From the NCBI GenBank assembly GCA_003577165.1, contig QEUM01000005.1, positions 62,001 to 126,000 of the forward strand: DNA of 64,000 nt, read 5' to 3'. Below, in pieces: positions 4,327 through 54,287 of the stretch. Position 1 is the first letter of the stretch, and every line of letters begins with the position of its first letter. Source of the stretch: Armatimonadota bacterium (lineage in GTDB: Bacteria > Armatimonadota > Fimbriimonadia > Fimbriimonadales > ATM1). Below the pieces are notes generated by a model that had not been told where the DNA came from, ran no database searches, and saw only the letters and a list, made by a program, of their open reading frames with translations. The position numbers and the translations under genes were made by a program.

Positions 4327-5528
4327 TCATTCGGCCCGATGCGGTGTTGCTCGATTCGGGGGAGATCGTCCCCGGCGTGGAAGTGTGCATCCTTGAAGGC
4401 ACGATCGATCGGATTCGGCCGTGGACGAAGGCGGCTCGCGAAGAGAGCGGCCTTCTGCTTTCGTGTGCGTTCGTTAACGCGCACTCGCACCTTGAGTACT
4501 ACGATCTGATCGGGCAAGTTGAAGCCGACGACTATTGGGCGTGGATCCAGGAGATCGTTCGGCTCAAACCTCTGAGACCGATGCACCAAGTCGCGGAAGC
4601 GGCGGAACTCGCGGCACACGCGAATCGCGCAACAGGAGTTTCGGCGATCGGCGAGCACTCCGATTGGCCCGTAAGCGGCGACGCGATCCGGGACGCTGGA
4701 CTCGGCGGTCGAATTTTCCAGGAAGTCATCACGATGCGCGAGTGGGCGGACCCTGAGGAGAAAGTCGCTCGCGTCGCGGAGGCGGCCACGATCAACGCAA
4801 AGTCTTCAGGACTTCCGGTTCACTTGGCGCCGCACACTCCCTTCACCGTCCACCCCGACGCTCTGCGCGCGATCTTTCAGTCCGGTTCGCCGACGAGCAT
4901 TCACGTTGCAGAGAGCCGCTACGAACGAGAGTTCTTCGAAAGGGGCGAGGGGCCGATTGCAGGTTTGTACCGCCAACTCGGGGTGCCGATCGAGCCTCCG
5001 GGCATTTCTCCTGTGGCGTACATTGCCGCCCTTGGCGGACTTACGGAGTCAACCCAACTCGTGCACGCTTGCGACCTCGATGAGGAGGACGTTTGGCGCA
5101 TTGGCAGCGCGCGGTGCAAAATTGCGCACTGTCCCCGCAGCAACGTTGCGCTCGGATGCCCCCCCGCTCCGATTCGCGAACTTCAGTCAGCGGGAGCGAC
5201 CGTCGGATTGGGAATGGACAGCGCGGCTTCCAGCGGCCCGATCGACATGTTTGCGGAGATGCGAGCAGCGGTTCATGTCGCCGAGGGCCGTGGCGACGTT
5301 CTCGGCGCAGAGTCCGTGTGGAGGATGGCGACGACTGACGCCGCAATCTCAATCTTCAGCGAGCGTCGCTGGGAGATGATCGAAGGCGGTCAACCGGATC
5401 TGATGCTCATGGATACCGAAAGATGGACACGCCTACCTGAAATCATCGCGAATTGCGCGCCGCGCTCCGTCATGCGAGTCATCAACGTTGCAAAACGCGA
5501 GGAGCCGGCCTCGCAGCCGGCTCCATAA
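4323..5528 (+). CDS. Amidohydrolase, aminodeoxyfutalosine deaminase-like
   Basis: 401 residues from a TTG at 4323 that overlaps the preceding stop. Metal-binding motifs of the cytosine deaminase/ATZ-TRZ branch are visible: HSH in FVNAHSHLEYYD (about residue 53), HTPFTVHPD, VHACDLDEED, a catalytic HCPRSN and LGMDSAASSG with the metal-binding Asp. This architecture fits MqnX, which deaminates aminodeoxyfutalosine in the futalosine menaquinone route. mqnC is in this window (21319), which supports but does not prove that role. Alternatives are guanine/cytosine-type or S-adenosylhomocysteine deaminases. A 9-bp hairpin overlaps the last codons. Confidence 0.8.
   Translation: MIIRPDAVLLDSGEIVPGVEVCILEGTIDRIRPWTKAAREESGLLLSCAFVNAHSHLEYYDLIGQVEADDYWAWIQEIVRLKPLRPMHQVAEAAELAAHANRATGVSAIGEHSDWPVSGDAIRDAGLGGRIFQEVITMREWADPEEKVARVAEAATINAKSSGLPVHLAPHTPFTVHPDALRAIFQSGSPTSIHVAESRYEREFFERGEGPIAGLYRQLGVPIEPPGISPVAYIAALGGLTESTQLVHACDLDEEDVWRIGSARCKIAHCPRSNVALGCPPAPIRELQSAGATVGLGMDSAASSGPIDMFAEMRAAVHVAEGRGDVLGAESVWRMATTDAAISIFSERRWEMIEGGQPDLMLMDTERWTRLPEIIANCAPRSVMRVINVAKREEPASQPAP
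5501..5524. terminator. Perfect 9-bp GC hairpin at convergent gene ends
   Basis: GGAGCCGGC (5501-5509), loop CTCGCA, GCCGGCTCC (5516-5524). It covers the last codons of the amidohydrolase and lies between two convergent genes. There is no strong T-run on either side, so it is terminator-like rather than a classical intrinsic terminator. Confidence 0.5.
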
Positions 5529-18706: not shown

Positions 18707-19866
18707 CGACAAGCGACATCAGATCGGATCTGAAGGCCTTCCTCGATGGAGAAGTCGCCCCCGAAAGGGCGAGGGAGATTCAAGAGGCGGTCCAATCACA
18801 GCCCGACCTCAGGGCGGAAGCGGATTTCTTCACTCGGTTGTCGAGAAGCCTGAAGGCGATTAGCGCATCCGATGTGGAGTCGCGTGCTTCTGCCGAACGA
18901 CTTGCAACTCGGTTCGAACGGCGAGGCTTTCTGCCTTTCTTCCGGCGATACGCGTGGCAACTTGCCGCAGCCGCTGGAATTCTGTTCGTTGCAGTTCTCG
19001 TGGCCCCACGGCCAAGGAGCGCGTATGAACAGGCCGACGCGGGCAGGCTGATCACGGCCAGTCCGCCGCCCGCGGGTTCCGCTGCCGTGGGTGGCGGGAA
19101 GGCGGAGTCCAGCCTTGACGCGACTTCGGCCGAAGGCGAGCTTGCCGAGGGTCGCACGAGAATGGGATCCGAGGTCCCGCCCAGTGTTGCAGGAGATTTC
19201 CAACTCGACCGCATGGTCATTCGCACCGCTGTTCTCCGCGTGAGAGTTGAGAATGTCGCATCCGCCGAGAAATCCGTTCGCAAATGGGTCGCAGGGTCGA
19301 ACGGATTCATCGAGGACGAGCAGAGCAGCCGGTTGGATGGCTCCGAACCGTCGACGCTCTTCGTCGTTCGCGTCCCCGAGAAACTCTTCGACGCCGCCCT
19401 CGACTACTTCCAGTCGCTTGGCGTGACGGCGGACCGAAGCATCGACGGACAGGATGTCACGTCTCAAATCGTTGATCTGGAGCAGAGAGTCAAGACACTG
19501 AAGGCCCAAGAAGAGACTTACCGGAACATCCTTCGCCAAGCGCGCCGGGTGGGGGAAGTTCTCGAAGTGCAGGATTACTTGACGAGAATCCGGACGGAGA
19601 TCGAGAGCATCGAGGCACAGGCAAAGCAGTTGAAGTCACTCGCCCGTCTCTCGACGATCACTCTCACGCTTCAGCAGCGCGTCGGATCGGAGAAGCCGGG
19701 TGAAGATCCGAACTGGGCGTCTGAGGCTTGGGCGAAGGCGGTGCGCTCCCTCGGTTCCGTGCTGCAAGCGTTAGCCACCGCAATCATCTACGTCTTCGTC
19801 ACATCGCCGATTTGGCTCCCGGCAACCCTCATTCTCTGGTTTGTTGTTCGAAGGCTTAAGCGATAA
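18703..19866 (+). CDS. Membrane DUF4349 protein with anti-sigma-like N-terminus
   Basis: 387 residues from the ATG overlapping the sigma stop; the frame is open upstream but only through the sigma gene. Residues 1-75 (DLKAFLDGEVAPERAREIQEAVQSQPDLRAEADFFTRLSRSLKA) resemble the cytoplasmic helical domain of anti-sigma factors but lack the zinc HxxxCxxC motif. A transmembrane helix follows at about 88-103, then a Pro/Ala/Gly linker and a DUF4349 domain (MVIRTAVLRVRVENV...LFVVRVPEKLFDAALDYFQSLG...TSQIVDLEQRVKTL) with a coiled coil. A second C-terminal membrane helix ends in RRLKR. The fusion suggests that an extracytoplasmic DUF4349 sensor controls the sigma factor. Confidence 0.85.
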   Translation: MTTSDIRSDLKAFLDGEVAPERAREIQEAVQSQPDLRAEADFFTRLSRSLKAISASDVESRASAERLATRFERRGFLPFFRRYAWQLAAAAGILFVAVLVAPRPRSAYEQADAGRLITASPPPAGSAAVGGGKAESSLDATSAEGELAEGRTRMGSEVPPSVAGDFQLDRMVIRTAVLRVRVENVASAEKSVRKWVAGSNGFIEDEQSSRLDGSEPSTLFVVRVPEKLFDAALDYFQSLGVTADRSIDGQDVTSQIVDLEQRVKTLKAQEETYRNILRQARRVGEVLEVQDYLTRIRTEIESIEAQAKQLKSLARLSTITLTLQQRVGSEKPGEDPNWASEAWAKAVRSLGSVLQALATAIIYVFVTSPIWLPATLILWFVVRRLKR

Positions 19867-22413: not shown

Positions 22414-22430
22414 GTGTCGCTCGAACGGAC

Positions 22431-22766
22431 TCAGAGGCCCTTTTCGCGCATCGCCTGCTTGAGCCTCTTGGTCTCGCCCATCAACTTGAGGCAACGCTCC
22501 ACTTGTTCGCGGCCATAGAGAGGCTGCACGAACTTCGAATTCTTCTCGAACGCCTTTGCGACTCGAAATCCTGCGTCCGCAAGAGCCTTCCGCACTGAAG
22601 TTAGGTCCTTCCTCTTGTCCATCACGAATCGAAGTTCGAACCCCTTCTTGTAGGCCTCGTGGCCCTCATCCATGCGGTCGGGATTAGGAACTCGCAGGTA
22701 CGCCCGGTCGTTGAAGTGAGCCTTCAACGTCGAAACGGCTGAATTGAGATTGCTGCTTGTTTTCAT
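22431..22766 (-). CDS. Small basic protein of unknown function
   Basis: 111 residues from ATG 22766, preceded by GAAGAAGG; the frame also opens at a GTG at 22817, which would add a Gly/Arg-rich leader. The sequence is Lys/Arg rich and helical (HFNDRAYLRVPNPDRMDEGHEAYKKGFELRFVMDKRKDL...VRKALADAGFRVAKAFEKNSKFVQPLYGREQVERCLKLM). I do not recognise a family. The PLYGREQVERCLKL end suggests a folded domain, not an antisense artefact. It lies convergently after mqnC, with a GGATATTCTGTGAA element upstream on its strand. Confidence 0.7.
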   Translation of the reverse strand: MKTSSNLNSAVSTLKAHFNDRAYLRVPNPDRMDEGHEAYKKGFELRFVMDKRKDLTSVRKALADAGFRVAKAFEKNSKFVQPLYGREQVERCLKLMGETKRLKQAMREKGL

Positions 22767-22963
22767 CTGCCTTCTTCGTCGGACCCATATCCGGGCCCTC
22801 CCGCCTCCTTCTTTCACAGAATATCCGAACTCGCCTGCGCGAATGTGGGATTCAGGCCCATAAGGCCACCGCTCGCCGTCAGACGACCGATTTTAGGCCA
22901 TTCCCTGGGCGAGATTTCCACCTCGGAGTCACCCCCCCGAAGAAATTCCTGTCACCGTAGCGA
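22767..22963. other. Intergenic region of 197 nt
   Basis: This holds no convincing open frame. It carries the element at 22813-22826 that is shared with the sigma-gene upstream region, oriented toward the small basic protein gene. Nothing else is recognisable. Confidence 0.6.
22813..22826 (-). promoter_or_regulatory. Second copy of the GGATATTCTGTGAA element
   Basis: An exact 14-nt copy, on the minus strand, of the element at 18140-18153. TATTCT could act as a -10 with transcription starting near 22811, leaving a leader of about 45 nt before ATG 22766. Confidence 0.4.
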
Positions 22964-32534: not shown

Positions 32535-32535
32535 A

Positions 32536-32874
32536 CTACAGCGCCGCGTCACCCCGTTCTCCGGTCCGAATTCGCACGGCGTCAATCACGTTGGAAATGA
32601 ATATCTTGCCGTCTCCGATTTCCCCCGTTCGGGCGGCGTCACAAATGATTTCAACGGCTCGCTCCACTTGGTCGTCCTTGAGAACGATCTCGATCCGAGC
32701 CTTGGGCAGCAGGTTGACAGAGTAGGTGCTCCCTCGGTACAGTTCCGTGCGACCGAGTTGCCGTCCGTGTCCGCGGACGGTTTCCGTCGACATACCGAAG
32801 ATCCCGGCCTCCTCGAGGGCAGCCTTGACCTCCTCCAACTTGTTAATCCGAATGATGCAGTCGAGCCTCTTCAC
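32536..32874 (-). CDS. Nitrogen regulatory protein P-II
   Basis: 112 residues from GTG 32874. The full PII fold is present: MKRLDCIIRINKLEEVKAALEEAGI, the T-loop GHGRQLGRTELYRGSTYSVNLLPKARIEIV (the uridylylatable Tyr in the position of Tyr51), the B-loop AARTGEIGDGKIFI and C-terminal VIRIRTGE-like VRIRTGERG. It senses ATP, ADP and 2-oxoglutarate and controls glutamine synthetase or ammonium uptake in relatives. There is no adjacent amtB or glnA, so glnB and glnK cannot be told apart. Convergent with the preceding gene, with one base between stops. Confidence 0.95.
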   Translation of the reverse strand: MKRLDCIIRINKLEEVKAALEEAGIFGMSTETVRGHGRQLGRTELYRGSTYSVNLLPKARIEIVLKDDQVERAVEIICDAARTGEIGDGKIFISNVIDAVRIRTGERGDAAL

Positions 32875-32954
32875 GCCTCTCGCAGTTTGGCACGGAGCCG
32901 CCTCGCCGAAAGGCGTAGACCTGTGCCCTGCCGGCTCAAGGCAACGGAGTTCCG

Positions 32955-33674: not shown

Positions 33675-34680
33675 GGACCCTCACGCGCCTGATTACGTGC
33701 CGTTTGATGAGGACTGGGATGGCGATCCCGGCAACGAATAGAATCGGCAGGAACAACAGAAACATCCAGCCGTCCCAAGAAACCCACTTTAGCATCACCC
33801 CCTTCACTCCGCCAATCGCGAGCGTGTTCATTAAGTAGATCGGGAACGTGTAGTCCCCGAGCGAGCTGAGGAGCGTCCAGCGCGATGCCGCGGGGTGCCG
33901 TACCAGGGCGAGGAGCGCAGGTATGGACAGCGCTCCCATCAGCAGCTTCGGAGCATTCGCGTACCAGTGTCCGGCAACCGACTCCTGCATGTCCGTAAGC
34001 ACCAAATAGCACAGGATCAGAGCAGCGAGAAAGGCTGCGAGGCTCATCGCTCCCAGTCGATCGAGCGACTGCGATACGGCTTTCCAGCGGCCCGCGAGAA
34101 CCGCGCCGAACAGGAAGAACGGAAGATAGAAGAAGAAGCGATCCAGAGCGAGGTATTCCGTCATCGGCAAGAAAGCCAGACCGATACAGGGCGCGATGAA
34201 CCAAGCCCAACGCCGCATCGGGAGCGCGAAGAGCGGCGCACATGCCACGGTGAGGAAGAAAAGCACGTAGACGTACCAGAGGTACTCCGAGAAACTCTTC
34301 CCTGGGCGAATGAAGATGTCCCAGAACTGCTCGAAGGACTGAACTGGATTGTCGACGTGCAGAACTCGTCCACCGTAGTACTTCGCGAGGAAGACGATAA
34401 TGCTGAACAAGAGGTAGGCGGGTATCAGCCTTACAAACCTGCGCCACACATACGTTCCATAGTCGCGGACGCTCGATAACGGCTTGAACGCGTAGTAGGT
34501 GACGAAACCACTGAGGAACATGAAGAAGGGCATGTGGAACAAGTACACGACACCCTTCACGCGCTCGAACCACTCCGCATCCTTCGGCGGCTCGCGCGCC
34601 ACGACATGCCCAAGTACGACGAGGGCGATGGCAAGGCCCTTCGCGCGATCGATGTCTACGAGCCTTTCCCGCGCCATCAA
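33655..34680 (-). CDS. Membrane acyltransferase (acyltransferase 3 family)
   Basis: 341 residues with about ten hydrophobic helices. The N-terminal RLVDIDRAKGLAIALVVLGHVVA contains the conserved catalytic-region His typical of the OatA/OafB/WecH family, and FHMPFFMFLSGFVTYYAF is also diagnostic. These enzymes O-acetylate or succinylate surface polysaccharides or peptidoglycan. Its start overlaps the selB stop by ATGA, so it is probably read from the selB transcript, although no functional link is expected. Confidence 0.88.
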   Translation of the reverse strand: MMARERLVDIDRAKGLAIALVVLGHVVAREPPKDAEWFERVKGVVYLFHMPFFMFLSGFVTYYAFKPLSSVRDYGTYVWRRFVRLIPAYLLFSIIVFLAKYYGGRVLHVDNPVQSFEQFWDIFIRPGKSFSEYLWYVYVLFFLTVACAPLFALPMRRWAWFIAPCIGLAFLPMTEYLALDRFFFYLPFFLFGAVLAGRWKAVSQSLDRLGAMSLAAFLAALILCYLVLTDMQESVAGHWYANAPKLLMGALSIPALLALVRHPAASRWTLLSSLGDYTFPIYLMNTLAIGGVKGVMLKWVSWDGWMFLLFLPILFVAGIAIPVLIKRHVIRRVRVLNQMIA

Positions 34681-36536
34681 GGCTCCACAACGACCCTTTC
34701 TTCACCCACTCGACGAGTCACTTTCGCTTCGTCGAAGTACTGGAGCAGAGGCAGAGCGAATTTTCTCGAACTCCCTGTGGCGTCCCGGAACTGCGCAACC
34801 GTGAATCGAGGTCCCAATTGACGCACTGTCGTCTCCAACTCCTCAATCGTCCTTCGCGAGTAGTACATCCCCTCCTCGACCCGAACGATCTGACCCGTCT
34901 CCACTCCGAGTCGCCAGATCTCCTCGATGGCCTGCGGGGGGGCCCCAGCCTCGCCCGCCAACTCCTTAGCATCTGGCGCTACCGCGCCGAATTTCTCCAT
35001 CACTTCCAACACCCGCGACAACAGTTCTTGCTGCTTATCGGTAAGACGTATCGCAAAGTCCGGGTGCCGCATTCCGGATCCCTGCACGAGCACACGACGC
35101 TCCTCGGCCAGCCGGGAAATCAAGCGGTCCACGGGCTTAGGATCCCAATCCACGCCCGCCTCCTGGAGGACCGTGGCCTTCGGATGATAACTCGAGCGCG
35201 GATTCGCCTCGTGGAGTTTGGCAAGCGCGCTCCGGATCCTCTCCGCGAGGGAGTCGAACTGCTCGGGCGTGAGCCAGACACCGGCGAACCCGAGGGCGCG
35301 CTCCGATTTCTTCAAATCTTCGAACGCGTCGCCGAGCGCGTTCGCGTTCATACCGAGCGCCTCGCACACCTCCTCCGTCTTGGTCCCGGAGGGTTTGCTC
35401 GAAAGCACGCGCAGGATGCGCTCCGCGATGGGTTCGTCCGAAGTTGGTTGAACGATTTCGGCGATCTTTGAATCCGACTTCCGACGAGGCTTCGCTGATG
35501 GAGTGACAACTTCGCCGCCCGCCAGCAAGTCCGGCGGCGAGTACCTCCGAAGCACCAACCTCTGCCCCTTGCCGCACGCCGCTGGCGACTCCAACCGCAC
35601 TTGCGCGATTCCTCGCGCGTTGTCGAACAAGAACACCTTGCCGATGAACTCGCCGGATCCAATGTGCGCGCGAACTCTCTCCCCGTGCTCGATCTCCGCC
35701 ACCTCCACCAAGCGGATGTTGATGCACGTCGTCTCCTCCAACGTTCCCGGCGCGCATAGCGCCTGTCCCCTGTGCAGCAGTTCCTTCTTCGTCCCAACGA
35801 TGTTCAGCGCGGTGCGCTGACCGGCTTCCGCATGGTCGGACGCGCTCCCGTGGGTCTGGATAGATCGAACCCGCACACGATCCCCGCCAGGCAGCAGTTC
35901 CGCCTCGTCCCCGACATGAACGGCGCCCCGCGCAAGCGTGCCTGTAACGACGGTTCCGTGGCCGACGATCGTGAACACTCGATCGATCGGCAGAAACCAA
36001 TCCTTGCCCGTCGTGTCCCGGGGGGGCAGAGCACGAATCACCTCTCCGAGGACATTCTTTAGCTCGTCTACCCCCACCCCCTTCGACGCCGCGACCTCGA
36101 CGTTCGGGCACCCTTCGTATGGCGAACCCTCCAGGAGCGCCGCCACGTCGAGTTTCGCGTACTCGATCATTTCCCTGTCGGCGAGGTCGCACTTCGTCAG
36201 AGCGACCACCATCCGTTTCGCTTCGAGGAGCCGTAGGATTAGAAAGTGTTCACGTGTCTGCGGCATGACTCCTTCGTCCGCAGCGACACAAAGCAGGGCC
36301 ACGTCGACACCCGAGGCGCCCGCCAGCATGTTCTTGATGAATCTCTCGTGACCCGGTACGTCCACGATGCTCACGCGGCCGACGCCCTCCACGTCCACAT
36401 AAGCGAAACCCAAGTCGATCGTCATCCCGCGTGCCTTCTCTTCCGGCAGCCGGTCAGGATCGATTCCGGTCAACGCGGCAATTAGCGTCGTCTTTCCGTG
36501 GTCGACGTGGCCGGCAGTCCCGATCAGATACGCCAT
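34677..36536 (-). CDS. selB: Selenocysteine-specific elongation factor SelB
   Basis: 619 residues, full length. The GTPase domain has GHVDHGKT (residues 9-16), [20 protein letters not shown] and TKCD. Beta-barrel domains follow ([23 protein letters not shown]). The C-terminal third has the winged-helix repeats that bind the SECIS element, including [34 protein letters not shown]. This is SelB rather than EF-Tu or IF-2. It delivers Sec-tRNA to in-frame UGA. selA, selC and selD are not in the window. TAGAAT lies 7 nt before the ATG, consistent with leaderless transcription. Confidence 0.95.
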
Positions 36537-37726: not shown

Positions 37727-38599
37727 CTAACGCGCGCCTGGAATTGCGCGGCTTTCGATGACTCCGTCTCTGCAAGTCCATGCGACGAAACCGTCCTTCG
37801 ACGCGGCGGCTCCCCAGTCGCCGTCCCGTGAAACCGCAAACACGACGCTGCAGTGATCGCGTGTCGCGGGCGAGCGATCCACCATGATCCCGACAGCGCG
37901 CTCGCAAGCCGCTTCTGCGCTCATCCCGCTCCTCATGAACTCGACGGCTCGAAACGACAACATGAAGCGCCAGATGTCTTCTCCGACACCGGTCGCGCCC
38001 GCTGCTCCAGCGTCATCATCAGCGTAGTAGCCCGCGCCGGCGATCGGCGAATCCCCCACTCGCCCGGGAACCTTCCAAGCCATCCCGCTTGTGCTGCAGG
38101 CAGCGACCAGGTGCCGCGTCTCAGATTCCCATCCGATGATCGTGACCGTATCGTGGACAAGATGCGCGACCTCGGCGCCGCGTCGGTTAGCTCGCCACTC
38201 TTCGTAAGCCCTCAGGCTGTGTTCGCTGTTGAGATTCCGCACCTCGAATCCATGGCGCTCGGCAAACCTTCGCGCGTTCTCGCCCGCCAGCATGTTGTGC
38301 GGAGTTTCCTCCAAGACTTTGCGCGCAACGGAGATCACCGGAATCACGCCGCGAACCGCGCACACGGCTCCGACCTCGAGCGTCCGTCCGTCCATCATCC
38401 CCGCGTCCAACTCCTGATCTCCCTCCGAGTTGGGCAAGCCACCAAAACCGATGGCCTGATAGCGTGGGTCCAATTCCACGTGGGCCAAGCCAGCCTCGCA
38501 CGCGGTCAACAGGCATCCTGTGGATTGGTAATTTTCGTAGGCCGCGCGAACGGTTGGCTCGCCGGCATCTTTCCAAGTCGAGACGAACAAAACGGACAC
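37727..38599 (-). CDS. Isoaspartyl peptidase / glycosylasparaginase family Ntn hydrolase
   Basis: 290 residues from GTG 38599. ACEAGLAHVELDPRYQAIGFGGLPNSEGDQELDAGMMDGRTLEVGAV is the alpha-subunit signature. The autocleavage site is the HDTVTIIG segment with Thr near residue 150 as the new nucleophile, followed by STSGMAWKVPGRVGDSPIAGAGYYAD. The order matches N4-(beta-N-acetylglucosaminyl)-L-asparaginase more than plant-type asparaginase. There is no signal peptide. CATACT lies 6 nt before the GTG. It faces a 370-nt intergenic region. Confidence 0.9.
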   Translation of the reverse strand: MSVLFVSTWKDAGEPTVRAAYENYQSTGCLLTACEAGLAHVELDPRYQAIGFGGLPNSEGDQELDAGMMDGRTLEVGAVCAVRGVIPVISVARKVLEETPHNMLAGENARRFAERHGFEVRNLNSEHSLRAYEEWRANRRGAEVAHLVHDTVTIIGWESETRHLVAACSTSGMAWKVPGRVGDSPIAGAGYYADDDAGAAGATGVGEDIWRFMLSFRAVEFMRSGMSAEAACERAVGIMVDRSPATRDHCSVVFAVSRDGDWGAAASKDGFVAWTCRDGVIESRAIPGAR

Positions 38600-38637
38600 G
38601 CGCGGAGTATGCCCGGACTACGGTCCGTTTCGCAGAC

Positions 38638-38646
38638 TGTGGATAA
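38638..38646 (-). promoter_or_regulatory. Single consensus DnaA box
   Basis: TGTGGATAA on the plus strand, which is TTATCCACA on the minus strand, an exact consensus match. It sits inside a small inverted repeat, GTGG-ATAA-CCAC. Only one copy was found here, so this is not an origin. Confidence 0.35.
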
Positions 38647-38728
38647 CCACGTGCCTCGCTAAATATCTCGTTTTTGTCCAGAAATACGTGGCATTCCTCA
38701 TGCGGGCATCGTTAGAATGATAAGAGGA

Positions 38729-38824
38729 GGAGTTCGAAGGAACGGCTCCCCCAAATAGGTGAGGTAATCACCAGGCCTCCCAGAAAAATGAGGCAAGGCC
38801 GGACGGCTCAGTAGGCGTCCGGCC
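38729..38824 (+). ncRNA. Candidate structured RNA, four consecutive hairpins
   Basis: Stem A: GGAG/CTCC enclosing GTTC-GAAG-GAAC (38729-38749). Stem B: GGTGA-GGTAA-TCACC (38758-38772). Stem C: GCCTC/GAGGC with loop CCAGAAAAAT (38775-38794). Stem D: GGCCGGACG/CGTCCGGCC, 9 perfect pairs (38797-38824). TAGAAT at 38713-38718 would place a transcription start at about 38725, just before stem A. The MBL gene downstream has its own -10-like TACATT next to its ATG, so this may be a free-standing small RNA rather than a leader. It does not match SRP, 6S or tmRNA patterns, or riboswitches I know. Confidence 0.4.
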
Positions 38825-38957
38825 GCTTAACTGTGGCGAGATGCCAGGATCCGTAACGACATCCCGATCATGGGTTGCCATACCGCCGATCTGCCCAATT
38901 CCGGACCGTTCGTTTCTGCCAGCGCGTCGAGCCCTCGCCGGACAAGGCCGATTGGTG

Positions 38958-38970
38958 TACATTTCCCCCA
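38958..38970 (+). promoter_or_regulatory. Candidate leaderless promoter -10 for the MBL gene
   Basis: TACATT (38958-38963) is followed by seven nucleotides (TCCCCCA) and then the ATG at 38971. No Shine-Dalgarno sequence is visible. Confidence 0.4.
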
Positions 38971-40635
38971 ATGAAAGTCACCGTCTTCGGCGGCGTCTGC
39001 GAAATCGGCGGTAACAAGATCCTCGTCGAAGACGGCGGTTCGGCCCTGTTGCTGGATTTCGGGCTCCCGATGGGGCGCTTCAACTCGTTCTTCGACGAGT
39101 TCGTTAGGCCCCGCACCTCGAATCATCTCCTCGACGTCGCACGGCTCGGGCTCGTGCCCGAGATTGACGGCATTTACCGAAACGACATGCTGGCCAACGC
39201 GGTCCGGTGGCACGCCGCGTCGTCGATGGGGGTCCCCCCCGAAGCCGAACGCATGTATCGGCTCGACTGCGCGAACTACGACGATCACATCGCTTCGTCG
39301 GGATCGCCCCGCGTCCAGGCCGTTCTTCTCACGCACGCCCACGCAGACCACTACGGCCAGATCGGTTACTTAGACCAACGCATTCCGATCGTCTGCTCGC
39401 CCGTCACGCGGATCCTTTGCGAGGCGATTCAGGCGGTGTCGCCGGCATCACCGGACTCCGAGATTTATGAGGTTCGGGCCAAGTCGGTCGGAACCTCGAG
39501 CGACCGAGCGACATTTCCGGAGGCCCCATCGAGGGTCAACGACCGAGACCCGCAGGTGCGGCCGTACCAACTCTTGGACGCCCACGCGCCAACGCAGATC
39601 GGCGCCTTCTCCGTCGAGGCCATCCCCGTAGACCACAGCCTCGCCGGCTGCTGCGCATTCCTAATTCGCGGGCCGTCCGGCAGGACTCTCTTCTACACCG
39701 GCGACGTTCGCTTCCATGGCCTCTACAGCCTCGGGCCAAACAGCATCTCGGAGCGCCTCCGCGGGCGCACCACCGATCTCAGACCGGACATCCTCATCAC
39801 CGAGGGCACTCGCATTACCGAAGCGACCACCGACGATGAGAGCGACGTCAGGCGAAGACTCCACGAGGTGGTCTCCTCCACTCCAGGGCTTGCGATCGTG
39901 GACTGGGCCTGGAAGGACACGGCCCGATTTCAGACGGTCGCCTCCGTCGCGAAGGAAACGGGCCGCATCCTCTGCGCAAATCCGAAACTCCTGGCCCTTT
40001 GGTCAACCCTGTCCGCGCATGATCCGAACGAGTTTCCGCCGCTTGACACGCTCGGAGACATTCGCGCCTACCTCGAACGCAGCGACACACTCACATACTC
40101 CCCTGCGGACTACCAGGCGTCGCCGCACAAACTCGGGCCGTTCCTCCGCTGGGATTTGGACGATAAAGAACTGGCACGGCGTGCGTGGGAGTCACGCAAC
40201 TCTGGCGGCCTGATCGGCTGTTCCCAACTTGAATACCTCACGAACGCCGTTCGCGCGTATGACATCGCAAGAGATCCGAGTAAGTACATCCTGCAAGCTG
40301 GCTACTTCGACATTCAGGAACTGATCGACATCGACCCCCCACCCGGCAGCGTCTACGTGCGGGCAGCGACGGAGCCGTTCTCCGACGAGATGCGCCTCGA
40401 CGAAGCGAAGTTGAAAAACTGGCTTCAACGCTTTGGCGTGATCGCCTCGGACGAGCAGTTCCCCAGAACGCACGTGTCGGGTCACGCGTCGGGCACAGAC
40501 CTCCTTGAATGGATTCGTGAGATGCGGCCCTCGAACGTCGTTCCAGTCCACACGGAGCATCCTGAAGTCTTCACCAACGAACTCAGCGGAATGGCCGTCA
40601 TTCCGCCCACCTATGGTGAAACCCTCGACTTCTGA
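38971..40635 (+). CDS. MBL-fold metallo-hydrolase, beta-CASP / RNase J-like
   Basis: 554 residues from ATG 38971; the frame opens earlier but the leader is not conserved in character. VTVFGGVCEIGGNKILVEDG and LLLDFGLP open the metallo-beta-lactamase fold. LTHAHADHYGQIGYL is the HxHxDH zinc motif (about residue 120). Later come VDHSLAGCCAFLI, FYTGDVRFHG and THVSGHASGTDLLEWIREMRPSNVVPVHTEHPE, which is the RNA-specificity-domain-like end. The length and end fit ribonuclease J relatives, but the N-terminal insertion (PRTSNHLLDVARLGLVPEIDGIY) is atypical, so RNase activity is inferred. Confidence 0.85.
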   Translation: MKVTVFGGVCEIGGNKILVEDGGSALLLDFGLPMGRFNSFFDEFVRPRTSNHLLDVARLGLVPEIDGIYRNDMLANAVRWHAASSMGVPPEAERMYRLDCANYDDHIASSGSPRVQAVLLTHAHADHYGQIGYLDQRIPIVCSPVTRILCEAIQAVSPASPDSEIYEVRAKSVGTSSDRATFPEAPSRVNDRDPQVRPYQLLDAHAPTQIGAFSVEAIPVDHSLAGCCAFLIRGPSGRTLFYTGDVRFHGLYSLGPNSISERLRGRTTDLRPDILITEGTRITEATTDDESDVRRRLHEVVSSTPGLAIVDWAWKDTARFQTVASVAKETGRILCANPKLLALWSTLSAHDPNEFPPLDTLGDIRAYLERSDTLTYSPADYQASPHKLGPFLRWDLDDKELARRAWESRNSGGLIGCSQLEYLTNAVRAYDIARDPSKYILQAGYFDIQELIDIDPPPGSVYVRAATEPFSDEMRLDEAKLKNWLQRFGVIASDEQFPRTHVSGHASGTDLLEWIREMRPSNVVPVHTEHPEVFTNELSGMAVIPPTYGETLDF

Positions 40636-44964: not shown

Positions 44965-44993
44965 AAGCGAGGAGCGCATCGCGCTCCTCGCTT
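44965..44993. terminator. Bidirectional intrinsic terminator
   Basis: AAGCGAGGAGCGC (44965-44977), loop ATC, GCGCTCCTCGCTT (44981-44993): a perfect 13-bp stem with short T-rich flanks on both sides. It separates the convergent plus-strand dehydrogenase-DUF1080 pair from the minus-strand transporter operon. Confidence 0.85.
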
Positions 44994-45013
44994 TCGTCCC
45001 TATTCGCAGCGAC

Positions 45014-51482: not shown

Positions 51483-52422
51483 GGTGCTCTTGGGTTACTT
51501 GACGCCGGTGGCGCCCCAGGGTGTCACGAAGCCGACGCCTCTTCCACCCGAACGGTTCCAGTATAGCCAGGTGCACATGGGTGTACGGGTGTCCATCACC
51601 CTCTACGCCGCGGACAGCACTCGCGCTGAAACGGCGGCTCGGGCTGCGTTCGACCGCTTCGCAGAACTCGACGCCGCTCTCAGCGACTACCGCCTGGACA
51701 GCGAGTTGATGGCCCTCTGCCGCCGAGCCGGCACCGGGCCCGTTCCCGTGGGCGGAGACCTCTTCGAAGTCCTCTCCGTGGCACAGCGCATTTCAGAGGC
51801 GACCGGCGGTGCGTTTGACGTCACAGGCGGCCCTGTCTTCAGGCTGTGGAAGGAGGCGATTCGAGAACGTCGCGCCCCAACGCAAGCGGCGATTCAGGAC
51901 GCGCGAACGAAGGTCGGCTGGCGACTCGTCGAACTCGACGCTGAAGCAAGAGCCGTCACACTGAAATCGCCCGGGATGCAAATCGACTTGGGCGGTATTG
52001 CGAAGGGCTACGCCTGCGACGAAGCCATCGAGTCCCTGGCCGCGAGCGGCATCAGCCGGGCAATGGTGGAGGCCGGAGGCGACATCGTCGTCAGCGGGCC
52101 ACCACCAGGCAAACTCGGATGGACTATCAGCGTCCGAGGGCTCGCCGGTCGCAAGTTTCTCCTCGCCCGCTGCGCGATCTCGACGTCAGGCGACGCCGAG
52201 CAATACGCGCAGCTCTCCGGGAGACGCTACTCGCACATCGTCGATCCCCGTACCGGATGGGCCCTCGACAACCGCATTCAATGCACGGTGATCGCGAAGC
52301 ACGGCGTAATCTCCGACTCGCTCGCGACGGCCCTGTGCGTTCTCGGCCCTGAAGATGGTGCGGCCGTTGCAAGCGCGTTCGGCGCGGAGCCTCACTTCGT
52401 CTTTCCATCCGCGATTAAGTGA
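51481..52422 (+). CDS. apbE: FAD:protein FMN transferase (ApbE)
   Basis: 313 residues if starting at ATG 51481; ATG 51451 is an alternative that overlaps the divergent SUMF gene further. MGVRVSITLYAAD, FDRFAELDAALSDYRLDSELMALCRRAG, DLGGIAKGYACDEAIESL, AMVEAGGDIVVSG and SHIVDPRTGWALDN are the ApbE motifs, including the Mg2+-binding Asp near the C-terminal half. It transfers FMN to Thr in NqrB/C or RnfD/G-type proteins, or other periplasmic flavoproteins. No Rnf or Nqr genes are in the window. Its 3' end overlaps kynureninase by 8 nt. Confidence 0.93.
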   Translation: MVLLGYLTPVAPQGVTKPTPLPPERFQYSQVHMGVRVSITLYAADSTRAETAARAAFDRFAELDAALSDYRLDSELMALCRRAGTGPVPVGGDLFEVLSVAQRISEATGGAFDVTGGPVFRLWKEAIRERRAPTQAAIQDARTKVGWRLVELDAEARAVTLKSPGMQIDLGGIAKGYACDEAIESLAASGISRAMVEAGGDIVVSGPPPGKLGWTISVRGLAGRKFLLARCAISTSGDAEQYAQLSGRRYSHIVDPRTGWALDNRIQCTVIAKHGVISDSLATALCVLGPEDGAAVASAFGAEPHFVFPSAIK

Positions 52423-53734: not shown

Positions 53735-53812
53735 AGTGGTCCTCTCGTTGCCGGACGGGCTCGGGCGAAGCCGAATGGCCGCTCAACTGCCTCGCGTACT
53801 TTGAATTAGATT

Positions 53813-54244
53813 ATGGTGACCCTCCGCGCGCTTGTTATTGACGACTCCTCGACAATGCGTCGGCTTATCATGAAGACTCTCATGAAAGCGAACGTCGCAG
53901 ACTTCCTCTTCGACGAGGCGGAAGACGGAATCGAGGCGGTACACAAATTCCTCACGTCTCCACCCGACATGATCTTCTGCGATTGGAATATGCCGAGGAT
54001 GAACGGCTACAACTTCGCGCGAAGGGTTCGTGCGGACTCCCGATACGATCATATCCCGATTGTGATGATCACGTCCGAAAAGGTCCTCAAGAGAATCGAA
54101 GAAGCATTCAACCGCGCGCGAGTGGATCGATACATCACGAAGCCTTACACGGTCGAGGAAGTCAGGTCAAGAGTATTGCCGCTCGTTCGCCGGATCGAAG
54201 AGGGCGGCAAAGGCAAGGGCGGACAGCAAAAGAAGGCGGCGTAG
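53813..54244 (+). CDS. CheY-like response regulator receiver protein
   Basis: 143 residues, a stand-alone receiver. LVIDDSSTMRRLI (acidic pocket Asp pair), phospho-acceptor Asp in FCDWNMPRMNGY, Thr/Ser in VMITSE, and the Lys in DRYITKPYTVEEV. The C-terminal Lys/Gly tail has no output domain. The sequence is most like CheY or PilG/PilH-type regulators. No histidine kinase is adjacent. It lies 43 nt upstream of an ECF sigma gene. Confidence 0.93.
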   Translation: MVTLRALVIDDSSTMRRLIMKTLMKANVADFLFDEAEDGIEAVHKFLTSPPDMIFCDWNMPRMNGYNFARRVRADSRYDHIPIVMITSEKVLKRIEEAFNRARVDRYITKPYTVEEVRSRVLPLVRRIEEGGKGKGGQQKKAA

Positions 54245-54287
54245 TTGGTCGCCCAGCAGAAGAGCCCCCTCGCCTGCCACACTTGTT

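Follow-up and report, generated by a model that had tools for sequence, protein, structure and literature searches.

A candidate lineage-specific small RNA between two divergent genes of an Armatimonadota bacterium

Computational analysis of a 64-kb stretch of an Armatimonadota genome (hereafter the window) points to a segment of about 100 nucleotides on its plus strand, 38725-38824, as a candidate independent, lineage-specific small non-coding RNA, a reading to which we assign a probability of roughly one half. The limits of the candidate are set by the spacing of the leaderless promoters of this genome and by the limits of the stable fold. The prediction is made because four aspects of the anatomy of the locus converge on it: a -10 hexamer TAGAAT of a type used by other genes of the genome, a predicted start at the base of the first hairpin, stable folding restricted to 38725-38824, and a separate promoter belonging to the downstream gene. 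The initial annotation had left the choice between an independent RNA and a leader of that gene undecided, and as far as anatomy goes it falls to the independent RNA. Counted against a small RNA are the lack of any homologue, of a recognisable -35 element and of a U-tract after the last hairpin, and the equally good folding of the minus strand. A plausible description of the element is that of an orphan small RNA candidate, at best an ordinary lineage-specific one.

The element is situated in a gap of 371 bp (38600-38970) flanked by genes that point outward from it. Upstream, on the minus strand, lies a beta-aspartyl-peptidase-like gene identified by its match to the Asparaginase_2 domain (Asn2; 37727-38599), and downstream, on the plus strand, a gene for an RNase J/beta-CASP-like metallo-hydrolase (MBL; 38971-40635). 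The MBL protein combines Lactamase_B_2 and RMMBL domains and matches RNase J chains of the PDB by sequence, with a score far below the NCBIfam cut-off for RNase J; its earlier designation as RNase J-like is sound in the sense of a divergent member of the beta-CASP/RNase J family that falls below the family cut-offs. Its gene is patchily distributed in the phylum, being present in 2 of 291 genomes, and was perhaps acquired horizontally. No annotated protein-coding gene terminates inside the gap, and no open frame on the plus strand runs across the whole element. The description of this gap as the longest between genes in the window is roughly correct: by the list of open reading frames the gap at 32535-32954 is longer, at about 420 bp, and two further apparent gaps that exceed it (22414-22963 and 53735-54287) contain small open reading frames. 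The gene for the selenocysteine-specific elongation factor, selB (34677-36536, minus strand; above the NCBIfam cut-off), is found 2 kb from the element. The lineage appears to use selenocysteine, since both selB and tRNA-Sec are present in most genomes of the family. The proximity of selB led us to consider the element as a tRNA-Sec, an identity ruled out by the location of this genome's tRNA-Sec on a different contig (G000:C17:31693-31783).

Re-reading of the sequence at 38713-38824 bears out the anatomy first described there, namely a TAGAAT hexamer followed by four hairpins, which are real and unusually stable. Hairpin 1 (H1; 38726-38749), recovered in both the minimum free energy (MFE) and centroid structures, consists of two 4-bp helices separated by a GA/GG internal loop and closed by a GAAG loop. 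Its pair probabilities are about 0.6, with competing registers, and it is formed in only about 60% of the ensemble because its G-rich arm can slide along the C-run opposite. It is followed by the unpaired linker CCCAAATA (38750-38757), the longest single-stranded stretch outside the loops. Hairpin 2 (H2; 38758-38772), GGTGA-GGTAA-TCACC, has 5 bp with pair probabilities of 0.98-1.0, and hairpin 3 (H3; 38775-38794), GCCTC-CCAGAAAAAT-GAGGC, has 5 bp with probabilities of 0.95-1.0 and a 10-nt loop. Hairpin 4 (H4; 38797-38824) is GC-rich and contains the nine perfect pairs noted earlier, followed by a 1x1 mismatch and two further pairs. Nearly all pairs of H2 to H4 have probabilities above 0.95, and these hairpins are almost fixed in the ensemble.

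The segment 38713-38824 as a whole has an MFE of -47 kcal/mol and a folding z-score of -4.83, with none of 200 shuffled sequences folding equally well, and the predicted transcript 38725-38824 has a z-score of -4.4. The flanking parts of the gap fold like random sequence (z of -0.24 for 38600-38712 and -0.29 for 38825-38970), and stable folding is confined to a sharply bounded unit of 100 nt. Since the segment had been picked by eye, a scan of the 64 kb in 1598 windows of 112 nt was also run, in which the element ranks about 8th by z-score and is hence rare, not unique. Two plus-strand segments with stronger folds, 18921-19032 and 52041-52152 (z near -6), apparently lie within coding genes. 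The minus strand of the element folds as well (-46.4, z of -4.3), and folding alone gives no strand because the stems are composed purely of Watson-Crick pairs, without G-U pairs.

The hexamer TAGAAT (38713-38718, plus strand) is the sole one on the plus strand of the gap that matches TATAAT in at least five of six positions. A consensus scan called no sigma-70 promoter, and TAGAAT has no good -35 element. In Deinococcus-Thermus a TANNNT -10 motif located 6-7 bp before open reading frames has been described (PMC12340547, PMC3160421), as has the leaderless arrangement of genes (PMC12340547). In the window the same motif occurs 6-7 nt 5' of the start codon in 5 of 35 gene starts, against 25 of 4799 control codons (0.5%; P ~1e-6), where the 35 starts were called by eye from the list of open reading frames rather than taken from mapped transcripts, so that some of the five (8342, 18120, 36536, 38971 and 44289) are possibly mis-called. 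The selB start is among these and is preceded by the identical hexamer, TAGAAT, 7 nt 5' of its ATG; the MBL start is another, with TACATT (38958-38963, plus strand) 7 nt 5' of its ATG, which substantiates the earlier observation that the downstream gene has a -10-like element of its own close to its start. Leaderless transcription is therefore probably common in this organism, judging from these gene starts, and the genome seems to use a minimal promoter type. Motif and spacing are thus shared with Deinococcus-Thermus by several genes, in contrast to which the TAGAAT of the gap precedes a non-coding stretch. Placing the start 6-7 nt from it, by the spacing of the leaderless-type promoters, gives a predicted first nucleotide at 38725/38726, exactly where H1 begins; a feature of the genome's own -10 type is hence found directly upstream of the putative RNA gene. 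Furthermore, among the 18 genomic sites of the form TAGAAT-N7-GG, the 100 nt that follow are most stable here (-48.0 as against -20 to -42).

At the other end of the element H4 forms a strong, GC-rich hairpin with no U-tract behind it. Only five perfect stems in the 64 kb, H4 included, reach 9 bp or more with a loop of no more than 14 nt, and 1.75% of shuffled gaps contain a stem of at least 9 bp. Two of the other four lie at the ends of convergent genes (5501-5524 and 44965-44993) and two inside genes; none of the five has a U-rich tail, except for a mild enrichment at 44994. The hairpin at 44965-44993, a 13-bp perfect stem of the form AAGCGAGGAGCGC-ATC-GCGCTCCTCGCTT, ranks with the most stable local folds found in the window and is probably a bidirectional terminator. 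That a hairpin of this rare type, otherwise met between genes at convergent ends, should stand in a divergent gap is counted in favour of a small RNA: divergent genes need no terminator-type hairpin between them, and the simplest reading of H4, and a reasonable one, is that an unannotated RNA of about 100 nt ends there, with H4 as a putative terminator lacking a U-tract. A published survey reports that a poly-U stretch is often missing at intrinsic terminators and is not a necessary trait of them, and describes clusters of hairpins as intrinsic terminators without a U-tract, 98% of them lying downstream of, and within 80 bases of, a stop codon (PMC8355165). The element resembles these clusters in its closely spaced hairpins, the GC-rich last one and the absence of poly-U, and differs from them in that its gap lies between divergent genes and contains no gene end.

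The search for relatives of the element was uniformly negative. In agreement with the initial failure to recognise a riboswitch or other known RNA in it, no Rfam family reaches its gathering score in the gap (the entire 64-kb window yields only a tRNA), and at E-values up to 10 the best match in the gap is a viral frameshift element on the minus strand, with an E-value of 0.49. No homologue was detected by blastn in 101 relatives, and a covariance-model search of 291 genomes of the phylum recovered only the element itself above noise. The flanks of selB and Asn2 orthologues, searched with the model with its filters off, likewise gave nothing below an E-value of 0.1 except the element itself, and two scans of a collection of genome contigs were also negative. 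Three weak covariance matches are taken as chance: those in G002 (E = 1.8e-4) and G008 (E = 8e-4) fall within protein-coding frames, which by translation are response-regulator-like and lipoprotein-like, respectively, and the third, in G093 (E = 0.003), corresponds to a bidirectional terminator hairpin of A-rich/U-rich type that follows a DinB-like gene. The element is present in a single copy in its genome and has no plasmid match, which disposes of a repeat or mobile element. The novel conserved structured RNA originally envisaged thus finds no counterpart, and on conservation in relatives, one of the two points on which that proposal had been staked, there is none at the distances available, those of the phylum and the family. 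The genomes searched included seven of the same family, none of them listed as belonging to the same genus. The absence from 291 genomes argues well against a family of wide conservation but not against a genus-level one, because a covariance model built from a single sequence is weak for diverged RNAs. A new family of regulatory RNAs of about 100 nt, confined to one genus and with a conserved structure visible in close relatives, is a tentative prospect that we regard as somewhat doubtful.

The main rival of the small RNA is the absence of any functional RNA, the gap being a recently formed or rearranged divergent spacer with chance GC-rich inverted repeats, of which H4 is perhaps an insulating or stray terminator. 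The lack of conservation at every distance tested speaks for such a spacer, as does the arrangement of the neighbouring genes, which is unique to this genome: the relative G004 has selB and the Asn2 gene side by side, without the DUF2961 gene, Asn2 is preceded there by different genes, and the gap lacks synteny. About seven other windows of the 64 kb also reach an equal or stronger z-score. Against this, the promoter, the start of the hairpins and the abrupt limits of the fold all fall together, with z-scores near -0.3 on both sides, and we hold a mere spacer to be rather unlikely, if the most serious contender. The hairpins could alternatively act on the other strand, as a leader or antisense RNA directed toward the Asn2 gene, or as palindromic regulator sites for both divergent genes. 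The stems are indeed perfect palindromes with an equally good fold on the minus strand, and H2 resembles an operator (GGTGA-N5-TCACC); however, this palindrome occurs no more than six times in 2.7 Mb, with unrelated spacers, so that no regulon is apparent and one built on H2 as operator is rejected. The one minus-strand -10-like site, TATCAT (38717-38722), is on the wrong side of the hairpins and hence would not transcribe them, leaving these minus-strand or operator roles improbable.

A 5' leader or attenuator through which the RNase J-like gene regulates itself, as the initial annotation had suggested, is equally hard to sustain. The MBL gene does follow the element on the same strand, H4 could serve as an attenuator, and an 8-codon frame, ATGAGGCAAGGCCGGACGGCTCAGTAG, extends across H3 and H4, but with neither a Shine-Dalgarno sequence nor a run of regulatory codons. 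In contrast, the start-proximal TACATT, exactly 7 nt before the ATG, argues for a leaderless MBL mRNA and, being the gene's own -10 element, makes autoregulation through H1-H4 unlikely on present sequence grounds; moreover, the 146 nt between H4 and the ATG are unstructured. Nor is structure kept upstream of MBL orthologues: in G002, whose copy of the gene (50% identity) is the only further one in the phylum, an open reading frame ends just 5' of the start, with no upstream gap and no RNA there. With so narrow a distribution of the gene, we give the leader little credence.

For the independent small RNA the following course of events may be proposed. RNA polymerase would start at 38725/38726 from a promoter of which the -10 TAGAAT is the only clear element, and the transcript, whose existence we infer from this arrangement, would immediately adopt its four-hairpin fold, in which H1 begins right at the 5' end and the GC-rich H4 closes the 3' end, providing both termination and protection there. 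The most likely mode of action would be base-pairing in trans through the unpaired linker CCCAAATA, a possible seed, together with the H3 loop. Computation establishes the fold, its limits and the type of promoter in this genome, whereas transcription, the position of the 3' end and the whole of the targeting are inferred. Bacterial trans-acting small RNAs with 3' ends formed by intrinsic terminators include a C-rich type in Gram-positive bacteria. The linker adjoins the C-rich arm of H1, CTCCCCC, and the RNA might in the manner of this type cover the Shine-Dalgarno sequence of its targets, which would be mRNAs with a G-rich Shine-Dalgarno sequence complementary to CTCCCCCAAAT. The candidate resembles the C-rich trans-acting RNAs in its length of about 100 nt, its putative promoter, its several hairpins with a GC-rich terminal one, and the C-rich unpaired stretch beside H1; unlike them, it has no U-tract after the last hairpin and no homologue.

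Neither a small RNA nor a spacer at this locus overturns anything known, and if the element is not an RNA gene the gap is an ordinary intergenic spacer. If it is transcribed, it would be a lineage-specific small RNA in a little-studied phylum, for which a limited literature search found no dedicated study of small RNAs, and would strengthen the case that non-coding genes, too, are driven by -10 promoters of the leaderless type in this phylum.
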